From positions 1-64,000 of the forward strand of contig CAJIYR010000010.1 of NCBI GenBank assembly GCA_905181735.1: a stretch of 64,000 bases of DNA, read 5' to 3'. The notes under the pieces were generated by a model, which worked only from the letters and a program-made list of their open reading frames with translations, was not told where the DNA came from and made no database searches. Position numbers and translations under genes: made by a program. Positions 15,964-47,437 of this stretch are shown piece after piece. The stretch is from an uncultured Hyphomicrobiales bacterium (GTDB lineage: Bacteria > Pseudomonadota > Alphaproteobacteria > Rhizobiales > TMED25). The stretch's first letter is position 1. Every line of letters starts with the position of its first letter.

Positions 15964-17256
15964 TTATATTTTGCTTAATAACTTGTTACGGTTAGTTTTA
16001 GTTATTTGCATCTTTACCTCTACCGTTGATCTGCTATACCTTTTTGTAATAACAACGCTATTTTGGTAAATCCAACTTATTAAATCTAGACGTGATGATG
16101 GTATTTTTATGATAAAATGATCTTTACTACTATTTATCATTGTGTTTATAAGAATCTTTAACTCTTCAAGTCCCTCACCCGTTTTTGCCGACATTAACAT
16201 CTTGCTATCTTCTGACTCTCTGTATGTCTCAATTAGCTCTTTTGGCACTAGATCTATTTTATTATGAACCTCTATATAATTTGACTTTGTTAATTCTTTA
16301 CCTAGGGACTTCATAATGTTTATAACATCGTTCTTTTGATCTTCTGTATCTTCAACAGAAATATCTCTTACATGTATAATAAGATCGGCGTCCATAATTT
16401 CTTCTAAAGTTGATTTAAATGCTTGTATTAGTTCTGTTGGCAAATTTGAAATAAAGCCAACAGTATCAGATAAAATAATTGTCTGATTGTTAGAGGTTCT
16501 TATCTTCCTCATTGTTGTATCTAGTGTAGCAAATAACATATTTTTTGCCAACATATCTGATCTAGTTATTTGATTAAATAGAGTTGATTTACCTGAATTT
16601 GTGTATCCTATTAGCGATACAATTGGATGTGGTGTTTTCTTTCTTTCTTGTCTATGTAAGTTTCTTGTTTTTACAACTTGATTCAATCTTTTTTTAATTT
16701 TAACGATTTCATCGTCAATTAGCCTTCTATCCAACTCTAACTGAGACTCGCCTGGCCCACCTATAAAACTTGTTGCACCTCTTTGCCTCTCTAAATGCGT
16801 CCATGATCTAACTAACCTTGTCCTTTGGTAATTCAATTGAGCTAACTCAACCTGCAGAACACCCTCTTTTGTTACAGCACGCTCTCCAAATATTTCTAAT
16901 ATTAATGCAGTTCTATCTAAAACTTTAACTTGCCATTCTCTTTCAAGATTACGTTGCTGTATCGGGGATACATTTCCATCTAATATTACTATATAAATAT
17001 CGAGGTCATGAATTTTTTCCTTTATATCATCAATTTTACCTCTTCCGATCAGTGTACCTGGCTTAGGTGCATTAACTGTAATAATCTCGGAATATAATAC
17101 TTTCAAAGTGATAGCTTTTGTAAGTGATATTGCCTCTTCCAAGCATTGGTGAGGATCTCTATTATCAACAGATTTGAGTACTTTTATATCTGGGTGAATA
17201 ACGATTGTATTTAAATTTTTATTTTCTGTAATTATATTTTTTTTACTTTTTGAAAT
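15964..17256 (-). CDS. hflX: Ribosome-associated GTPase HflX, proposed ATT start
   Basis: HflX binds the 50S subunit and splits stalled ribosomes using GTP. G motifs are clear: GYTNSGKSTLFN (G1), DTVGFISNLP (G3) and HNKIDLVP (G4). The N-terminal domain shows the family GTLIGRGKIDDI and the glycine loop GGPGESQLELDRR. The first ATG/GTG/TTG codon in frame, a TTG at 17142, would delete a conserved first strand: upstream codons read TIVIHPDIKVLKS, then LEEAISL, as in homologues. The frame is open back to a TAA at 17277-17275 with no usual start. ATT at 17256 lies 9 bases after GGG within AAAGGGTTAGG and would give 430 residues, the usual length. Usual neighbours hfq and mazG are missing. Confidence 0.85.
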   Translation of the reverse strand: MSKSKKNIITENKNLNTIVIHPDIKVLKSVDNRDPHQCLEEAISLTKAITLKVLYSEIITVNAPKPGTLIGRGKIDDIKEKIHDLDIYIVILDGNVSPIQQRNLEREWQVKVLDRTALILEIFGERAVTKEGVLQVELAQLNYQRTRLVRSWTHLERQRGATSFIGGPGESQLELDRRLIDDEIVKIKKRLNQVVKTRNLHRQERKKTPHPIVSLIGYTNSGKSTLFNQITRSDMLAKNMLFATLDTTMRKIRTSNNQTIILSDTVGFISNLPTELIQAFKSTLEEIMDADLIIHVRDISVEDTEDQKNDVINIMKSLGKELTKSNYIEVHNKIDLVPKELIETYRESEDSKMLMSAKTGEGLEELKILINTMINSSKDHFIIKIPSSRLDLISWIYQNSVVITKRYSRSTVEVKMQITKTNRNKLLSKI

Positions 17257-17260
17257 TTTA

Positions 17261-17271
17261 CCTAACCCTTT
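17261..17271 (-). promoter_or_regulatory. Putative ribosome binding site deciding the hflX ATT start
   Basis: On the minus strand the sequence reads AAAGGGTTAGG, giving two purine-rich anti-Shine-Dalgarno matches 4 to 9 bases before the ATT at 17256. It overlaps the stop codon of the upstream kinase gene (17272-17270), so hflX may be translated by coupling to that gene. No comparable sequence precedes the TTG at 17142. Confidence 0.45.
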
Positions 17272-18076
17272 AATTTATATTATTAGTATAAGTATAATTG
17301 TAATTGTTATCTCTAGTTAACAATATATCAACTTCATTTGGCAAATTATTCCACATGCCATGCGTCCAACTTTCGTAATATGAACAGAAATTAATAATGT
17401 CAAAATAAGACTTAAATAATCTCCTACCTGTTCGCTTAAAATTATCGTTTTCTTGATTCCATCTAGATTTTATAACAGATTCAAAGTTATTAGGTTTTAT
17501 CATAATTAGCTTATCATAATAAGCCCATAGTTTAAGATAGTTTTTACAGCTTTCAATAGTCCATTTTTTCCATATAGATTTGCTATCTTTAAAACGTTCA
17601 AGATTATTTGCATAGTCCAATTCTATAAAACTTGACCTTGCACCTAAACACCAACCCTCAAATATGATAACATCAGGTTTATCCTTATAGGATATCCATT
17701 CATTTTTATCTAATATGTCGTCATCAGATTTTGAAAAAATAGGTAGGAACATTTCTGTGTAACTAGATGGCTTGGATAACATGCTTAAAGTTTCATCTAA
17801 TAGATCAATATTATGAGTACCAGGAACCCCTCGAGTTAAGCATAGCGGGTGGATATCATTAGATAGCTTTATTCTTTGTAACTTGGATAAATAAAAATCA
17901 TCAATACAAAGTATAAGGCAATTAATTCCCTTAGCTGAAATTGCGGTTTTTAAACTATTTGATAATGTTGTTTTTCCGGCTCCTGGTGATCCAGTTATAC
18001 CCACAATATATGGCTTAACAGATGACTTAAGATCAATCTGCTTTAAACAATCAAAAACTACTTGTTCCATTACCAT
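17270..18076 (-). CDS. D-glycerate 3-kinase-like P-loop kinase (GLYK/YGR205W family)
   Basis: Cytoplasmic kinase of 268 residues. Walker A is GITGSPGAGKTT (about residues 26-37), followed by LCIDDFYLSK, TRGVPGTHNIDL and VIIFEGWCLGARS. The GTH and FEGWC motifs, with a late SRWNQEN segment, mark the glycerate kinase / yeast Tda10-like branch of the uridine-kinase superfamily. Members make 3-phosphoglycerate or have unknown small-molecule substrates. AGAGG six bases before the ATG at 18076 supports the start. It occupies the place between trk and hflX where alphaproteobacteria usually keep hfq. Its frame ends next to the proposed hflX start. Substrate is not proven. Confidence 0.8.
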   Translation of the reverse strand: MVMEQVVFDCLKQIDLKSSVKPYIVGITGSPGAGKTTLSNSLKTAISAKGINCLILCIDDFYLSKLQRIKLSNDIHPLCLTRGVPGTHNIDLLDETLSMLSKPSSYTEMFLPIFSKSDDDILDKNEWISYKDKPDVIIFEGWCLGARSSFIELDYANNLERFKDSKSIWKKWTIESCKNYLKLWAYYDKLIMIKPNNFESVIKSRWNQENDNFKRTGRRLFKSYFDIINFCSYYESWTHGMWNNLPNEVDILLTRDNNYNYTYTNNIN

Positions 18077-47090: not shown

Positions 47091-47096
47091 AGGAGA
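47091..47096 (+). promoter_or_regulatory. Shine-Dalgarno sequence deciding the erpA ATT start
   Basis: AGGAGA at 47091-47096 is a strong anti-Shine-Dalgarno match eight bases before ATT at 47105. The only other purine-rich candidate for the TTG at 47162 is absent. A TATAAT sequence at 47064-47069 could be the -10 box of the erpA promoter, but its -35 region is poor. Confidence 0.6.
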
Positions 47097-47104
47097 ATTA
47101 TACA

Positions 47105-47437
47105 ATTACTGTTAATCCAATAAAAATATCAGATAATGCAGCAAATAAAATTTGTGAATTATTGAAAGAAGAAAATATTGATAGTTATTTCAGGATCTCT
47201 GTAACAGGCGGTGGCTGTTCTGGTTTTCAATATGAGTTTTCTACAGATCATCAAGTTACAAATAATGATGAAATATATGAGCATAACGAAGCTAGAATAC
47301 TAATAGATAAGATTTCTATTAAATTTTTACTTGGTTCAGTAATTGATTATAAGGAAGATTTAATCGAATCATCATTTAAAATAAACAACCCAAACGCAGC
47401 ATCTTCGTGTGGTTGTGGAACAAGTTTTTCAATTTAG
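47105..47437 (+). CDS. erpA: Iron-sulfur cluster insertion protein ErpA, proposed ATT start
   Basis: A-type Fe-S carrier delivering clusters to apoproteins such as LipA and Complex I subunits. The three ligand cysteines are present: one in GGGCSGFQYEF (Cys38) and the last two in SSCGCG (Cys102, Cys104). From a TTG at 47162 the protein would lack the conserved first strand and helix. The frame is open upstream to a TAG at 47090-47092 and reads TVNPIKISDNAANKICELL, which matches A-type carriers, but it has no ATG, GTG or TTG. ATT at 47105 with AGGAGA eight bases before it gives 110 residues, the usual size. Stop is directly followed by xthA. Confidence 0.9.
   Translation: MTVNPIKISDNAANKICELLKEENIDSYFRISVTGGGCSGFQYEFSTDHQVTNNDEIYEHNEARILIDKISIKFLLGSVIDYKEDLIESSFKINNPNAASSCGCGTSFSI

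Follow-up and report, generated by a model that had tools for sequence, protein, structure and literature searches.

The hflX gene in the window (the whole 64,000-nucleotide stretch of DNA that was analysed) probably starts at an AUU codon, at position 17256. At least three genes beside hflX seem to use an AUU start in the same genus, and a weak hflX start is widespread, but not universal, in Proteobacteria. More interesting than hflX by itself are the occurrence of several ATT genes in one genus and the frequent weakness of the hflX start.

The hflX reading frame and its candidate start codon

The hflX frame lies on the minus strand. It opens with ATT 17274, directly after a TAA at 17277-17275, and is closed by a stop codon at 15966-15964 (frame 15964-17274). 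ATG, GTG and TTG are absent from this frame upstream of TTG 17142, including the stretch before the conserved first strand, TIVIHP. A sequence-only reading of this DNA had described hflX as a gene without a normal start, the frame of which is open from 17274 to TTG 17142, and the minus-strand frame confirms this description; the length of 430 residues that it gave for a start at ATT 17256 also agrees with our count of the in-frame codons (Table 1). The product is a standard member of the HflX GTPase family. In a profile search, it matched TIGR03156 with 421.1 bits (cut-off 216.75), and the N-terminal (PF13167), middle (PF16360), GTPase (PF01926) and C-terminal (PF19275) domains were all above their cut-offs. 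The best-matching solved chains for the protein were HflX. The gene upstream encodes a P-loop kinase, which in the window sits between trkH and hflX; at the neighbouring-genus loci, the end of trkA apparently lies directly 5′ of hflX.

Table 1 Features of hflX, its surroundings and the other genes with a proposed ATT start. Positions are those of the window unless a locus (L) is given.
Feature	Position	Strand	Remarks
hflX CDS from the proposed ATT 17256 to the TAA stop	15964..17256	-	430 residues; codons 15967-17256
Proposed hflX start codon, ATT	17254..17256	-	in frame; ATT aligned in the sister; Shine-Dalgarno energy -4.5 (window) and -5.1 kcal/mol (sister)
hflX Shine-Dalgarno, AAAGGG	17266..17271	-	ends 9 nt before ATT 17256; identical in the sister, spacer differs (TTAGGTAAA vs ATTAATAAG)
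ATT 17274, aligned to the sister's ATG	17272..17274	-	overlaps the kinase stop; neither species has a Shine-Dalgarno here (duplex energy 0)
TTG, an internal codon for the leucine of LEEA	17140..17142	-	TTA in the sister; downstream of TIVIHP
Upstream P-loop kinase gene, family uncertain	17270..18076	-	stop TAA 17272-17270; sub-threshold family matches only
erpA Shine-Dalgarno, AGGAG	47091..47095	+	9 nt before ATT 47105; identical in the sister
erpA CDS from the proposed ATT 47105	47105..47437	+	NF010147 (ErpA) 124.7 bits vs cut-off 117
rodZ-like gene	L344 14061-14957	-	PF13413, PF13464; AAGG, 9 nt, ATT, shared with the sister
FemAB-like gene	L333 11174-12361	+	PF04339 469.7 bits; AAGGA, 8 nt (sister 7 nt), ATT

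We compared the window with the genome of a sister species (G001), which was the sole same-genus genome compared. The two HflX proteins are about 85-86% identical (86% across the 430 codons from ATT 17256). The differences between the genes are distributed 51/29/187 over the three codon positions, that is, they fall mainly on third positions. From ATT 17256 on, dN is 0.084 and dS is 1.79 (dN/dS ~0.05). Therefore, HflX is under selection.

The AAGGG motif, the 9-nt spacing and the ATT of hflX are common to the window and the sister. In addition, TTAGG (17265-17261) ends 4 nt before ATT 17256. The earlier choice of ATT 17256 as the candidate start is supported by a Shine-Dalgarno and ATT shared with the sister and by the energies in Table 1. 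How much weight a single such pair can carry was judged from codons inside genes. ATT makes up 4.9% of in-gene codons, and four near-cognate codons are present in the hflX stretch ahead of the conserved strand. A listed Shine-Dalgarno motif lies 5-11 nt upstream of 238 of 2757 in-gene ATT codons (8.6%) vs 53 of 160 ATG starts, and the spacing of 9 recurs at 9 of these 53 motif-bearing ATG starts of the window genome. The pair at hflX is therefore weak evidence when taken alone. A duplex energy equal to or better than that of ATT 17256 was obtained for 14% of 1152 sampled in-gene near-cognate codons and for 31% of the 160 ATG starts; this rank favours ATT 17256 without proving it. Thus, the case for AUU starts is made by the conservation of this layout and its reappearance in other genes rather than by one Shine-Dalgarno-ATT pair.

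With a start at AUU 17256, the predicted N-terminus of HflX is fMet-SKSKKNIITENK. The AAGGG motif at the end of the kinase gene would position the 30S subunit for hflX, and the ordinary initiator tRNA (anticodon CAU) would read AUU as a near-cognate codon with reduced efficiency. Near-cognate reading of AUU by initiator tRNA is established for infC. Initiation at the hflX AUU would be expected to give a low yield and to depend on IF3. Because the kinase stop codon lies at the hflX Shine-Dalgarno, 13 nt upstream of ATT 17256, initiation may be aided by translational coupling to the kinase. The proposed start site had previously been said to overlap the kinase stop. This is correct for ATT 17274 and for the beginning of the Shine-Dalgarno, both of which the TAA overlaps; in contrast, ATT 17256 itself begins 13 nt later.

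The alignment of the two species (window ATT-AAA-GGG-TTA-GGT-AAA-ATT-TCA vs sister ATG-AAA-GGG-ATT-AAT-AAG-ATT-TCT) shows an in-frame ATG six codons upstream of the shared ATT in the sister hflX (L003). On prior odds, this ATG, though without a Shine-Dalgarno, could be the start of the sister gene. Thus, hflX has no canonical in-frame start before the conserved sequence in the window and has one in the sister; erpA and the rodZ-like and FemAB-like genes described below have none in the sister either.

The true hflX start might then be AUU 17274, a decayed ancestral AUG that is still ATG in the sister. A G-to-T change would have created both this AUU and a new stop codon for the kinase, and ribosomes terminating on the kinase would re-initiate there. 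The exact alignment to the sister's ATG and the overlap with the kinase stop speak for this explanation. However, it is ATT 17256, not ATT 17274, that has a Shine-Dalgarno in the two species, and the five codons between the two ATTs, in which two amino acids differ, are less conserved than those past ATT 17256 (small numbers). We consider a start at 17274 unlikely. About as improbable is a base error or strain variant, in which 17272 is really G, hflX has the ATG of the sister and nothing about the gene is unusual. One base (17272) distinguishes the arrangement in the window from that in the sister, and the window comes from a draft assembly in 13 contigs. However, a single error cannot explain the same ATT layout in erpA and the rodZ-like and FemAB-like genes in two separate assemblies, and the Shine-Dalgarno would point at ATT 17256 even if an ATG were present at 17274.

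Early decay of a dispensable gene, with the start lost and hflX poorly expressed or not expressed, is very improbable: passages of PMC9067457 describe HflX as dispensable in E. coli under normal growth, but the full-length frame, the low dN/dS and the Shine-Dalgarno-ATT pair common to both species argue against decay, the dN/dS argument only weakening it because a very recent loss would leave this ratio unchanged. A truncated HflX that starts at TTG 17142, the first canonical codon of the frame, was rejected as hardly credible even though its 392-residue product still matches TIGR03156 (416.7 bits), since this codon encodes the leucine of the conserved LEEA motif, is TTA in the sister and, as argued previously, would as a start remove the strand TIVIHP, for which the aligned relatives have a counterpart.

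Other genes without a canonical start in the genus

Recurrence was examined by pairing the open reading frames of the window genome with those of the sister. The screen covered 821 kb of the 1.39 Mb window genome and about half of the sister, and a pair was flagged when there was no canonical start for at least 12 matched codons in either genome. In a first screen (431 kb, 212 pairs), hflX was the sole clear case. The erpA gene, the sister contig of which was absent from this first sample, was then found by listing window frames with late canonical starts. In the final set of 448 pairs, 44 were flagged, and all 44 were inspected codon by codon by eye, not blind. Four genes were taken as real and apparently start-less: hflX, erpA, a rodZ-like gene and a FemAB-like gene. 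This count includes a hand-added sister stretch that holds erpA; the screen alone gives three cases (hflX, rodZ-like and FemAB-like) in 444 pairs. Four is a lower bound, with about 570 kb of the genome outside the screen. Six flagged frames, each 74-100% opposite another open frame, were classed as antisense, and the remaining pairs were read as a shared leader ahead of an aligned or nearby canonical start. Two flagged frames were assigned to none of the classes gene, antisense and leader (G000 C2 52711-53079, plus strand, 122 codons; C7 24392-25627, plus strand, 411 codons). A start-codon change across many genes was considered and rejected, because only these four cases and infC were found in the screen.

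In both species, a listed Shine-Dalgarno motif precedes the ATT of all four genes by 7-9 nt (Table 1). The erpA gene has no canonical start ahead of the conserved N-terminus in either species, and AGGAG, 9 nt and ATT are common to both. Its open frame, from 47093, has its first canonical start at index 23 in the window and none before index 78 in the sister. The predicted N-terminus of ErpA from ATT 47105 is fMet-TVNPIKISDNAANK. The sequence-only reading had implied a further start-less gene beside hflX, and erpA, in the same window, fits this. The Shine-Dalgarno of the rodZ-like gene is short (AAGG; -3.0 in the window genome and -4.0 in the sister), and in the sister an in-frame TAA precedes the ATT, with two codons between them.

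In the neighbouring genus, the loci that were read have ATG for erpA (2/2, a count that leaves out 10 further loci with 33-39% identity), the rodZ-like gene (9/9) and the FemAB-like gene (10/10). Therefore, within the sampled family, the ATG-less forms of these three genes are confined to this genus. With the same layout in all three and AUA in infC, the genus would tolerate AUU starts in several genes.

The hflX start codon across Proteobacteria

The AUU of hflX is conserved in the sister. At 10 neighbouring-genus loci, hflX was read as starting with TTG (6) or ATG (3) or as having no canonical start (1), and the candidate starts at the 12 loci of the family were read as TTG (6), ATG (4) and none (2, the window and L004). 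One of the TTG readings (L008) was made by homology, with in-frame ATGs lying further upstream. Among order-level and related loci, 16 of 21 have no ATG before the conserved strand; when the family is included, this is 23/33. In E. coli K-12, hflX (L117 3673) is annotated with a TTG start, with AGAGGG 8 nt upstream.

We extended the comparison to a phylum sample. We read 110 loci from 118 matching genomes; five were omitted, and the window and two other loci are counted elsewhere. Of 109 scorable loci, 51 lack an ATG in the region from the frame opening (or 80 codons) to the conserved strand, the short locus L218 (155 bases) having been dropped as not scorable (hence 51/109 rather than 52/110). 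In this count, L146 is scored as without a canonical start though a GTG lies just inside the anchor, the frames of L164-L166 were not closed within the 360 nt examined, and anchors are approximate where the profile match starts late. At the 30 top-scoring proteobacterial hflX loci, ATG is absent from 20, as compared with 2/30 for engA, 3/27 for lepA (3 of 30 loci were unreadable) and 2/30 for era (together 7/87). Fisher's test of hflX against lepA and era only (5/57) gave p 3e-8; the hflX loci are not independent, and the top-30 controls come partly from other genomes than the top-30 hflX loci. The weak start is not universal, because one large family (f61) mostly has ATG: ATG is absent from only 2 of its 27 hflX loci, as compared with 49 of 82 in the rest of the sample.

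Another proteobacterium (L156, G137) has no canonical start for hflX, and AAGGAG precedes an in-frame CTG (-8.0 kcal/mol). In contrast, two other hflX loci without canonical starts (L004 of G004 and L192 of G071) showed no plausibly placed near-cognate start behind a strong Shine-Dalgarno. AUU or CUG may represent an extreme of the weak hflX start.

In the open-access literature searched, we found nothing on the start codon of hflX. An upstream-ORF motif before hflX in Bacillales is described in PMC8632094, the hflX passages of which do not mention the start codon; thus, control of hflX through translation of a leader has already been proposed elsewhere, by another route. According to PMC5622118, AUG-to-UUG switches are selected against and are compensated by stronger Shine-Dalgarno motifs. 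Therefore, a persistently weak hflX start is worth explaining. A start other than AUG, in Proteobacteria mostly UUG, would hold HflX, a GTPase that splits 70S ribosomes, at a low level, and control of HflX by initiation fidelity, as the sequence-only reading had proposed, would fit the wide distribution of such starts.

Initiation machinery and known non-AUG starts

The infC gene served as a positive control: in the window genome, it has AGGAGG, 6 nt and ATA. In 23 of 30 infC loci, including 14 of the 14 in this family, no canonical codon precedes index 23 of the open frame. The initiator tRNA gene (L045 695-771, minus strand) encodes the anticodon stem TCAGG/CCTGA, in which pair 29:41 is A-U instead of G-C. 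Such A-U stems have been linked to rhizobia or mycoplasmas, a link for which we found no support in the open-access literature searched. At the positions that correspond to R112, R116 and R147 of the E. coli protein (E. coli numbering), IF3 of the window genome carries lysine. Lysine 116 is present at 12/12 and lysine 112 at 10/12 neighbouring-genus loci. Lysine 147 distinguishes the genus from these 12 loci, all of which have arginine, but is also found at 3 of 28 other loci. We therefore rejected IF3 as a clear cause of the AUU starts. The A-U pair of the initiator tRNA and the IF3 lysines might permit AUU starts in the genus.

Three reports bear on IF3: it modulates the use of non-canonical starts (PMC13009471), its excess lowers re-initiation (PMC2268962), and it keeps ribosomal subunits apart, HflX being a ribosome splitter (PMC9067457). 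The level of HflX may plausibly be linked to IF3. We tentatively put forward a two-part interpretation, which as a whole we consider possible rather than probable. In the first part, start selection would be relaxed in this genus, with AUU for AUG in several genes including the core ErpA and RodZ-like genes, perhaps through the A-U pair 29:41, which replaces the first of the three stem G-C pairs of the initiator tRNA, together with lysines 112, 116 and 147 of IF3. In the second, independent part, the widespread non-AUG start of hflX would tie HflX to initiation fidelity as that of infC ties IF3.

AUU at places where relatives have AUG, in several genes, provides a natural setting in which to test what determines initiation fidelity. 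The hflX survey raises the question of whether HflX production in E. coli K-12 is limited by IF3 and coupled to it. Moreover, common gene finders accept only ATG, GTG and TTG. They would truncate or misplace genes of this kind, and counts of AUU starts in small AT-rich genomes may therefore be too low.

Conserved non-canonical starts with a strong Shine-Dalgarno and reduced yield have been described, in passages of PMC13009471, for S. aureus cvfC1 (AUU) and ccpN (AUA), on the basis of ribosome profiling and reporters. As far as these passages go, the S. aureus genes differ from those described here in their extended Shine-Dalgarno, in phylum and in gene identity, and the evidence for the present genes is sequence layout. 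The infC gene, with AUU or AUA, likewise has a near-cognate AUH start behind a Shine-Dalgarno and is also present in this genome. However, its non-canonical start is common among the 30 infC loci, whereas ATT in erpA and the rodZ-like and FemAB-like genes was seen only in this genus; and infC is known for autoregulation by IF3, whereas the AUU genes here are known from sequence. For E. coli pcnB, Binns and Masters reportedly described in 2002 a second chromosomal AUU start, which limits expression. That case concerns one gene, whereas at least four candidates are present here in one small genome. E. coli hflX is the same gene with the same layout of motif, spacing and weak start, but in place of AUU it has UUG, which is among the starts accepted by gene finders, whereas AUU usually is not.
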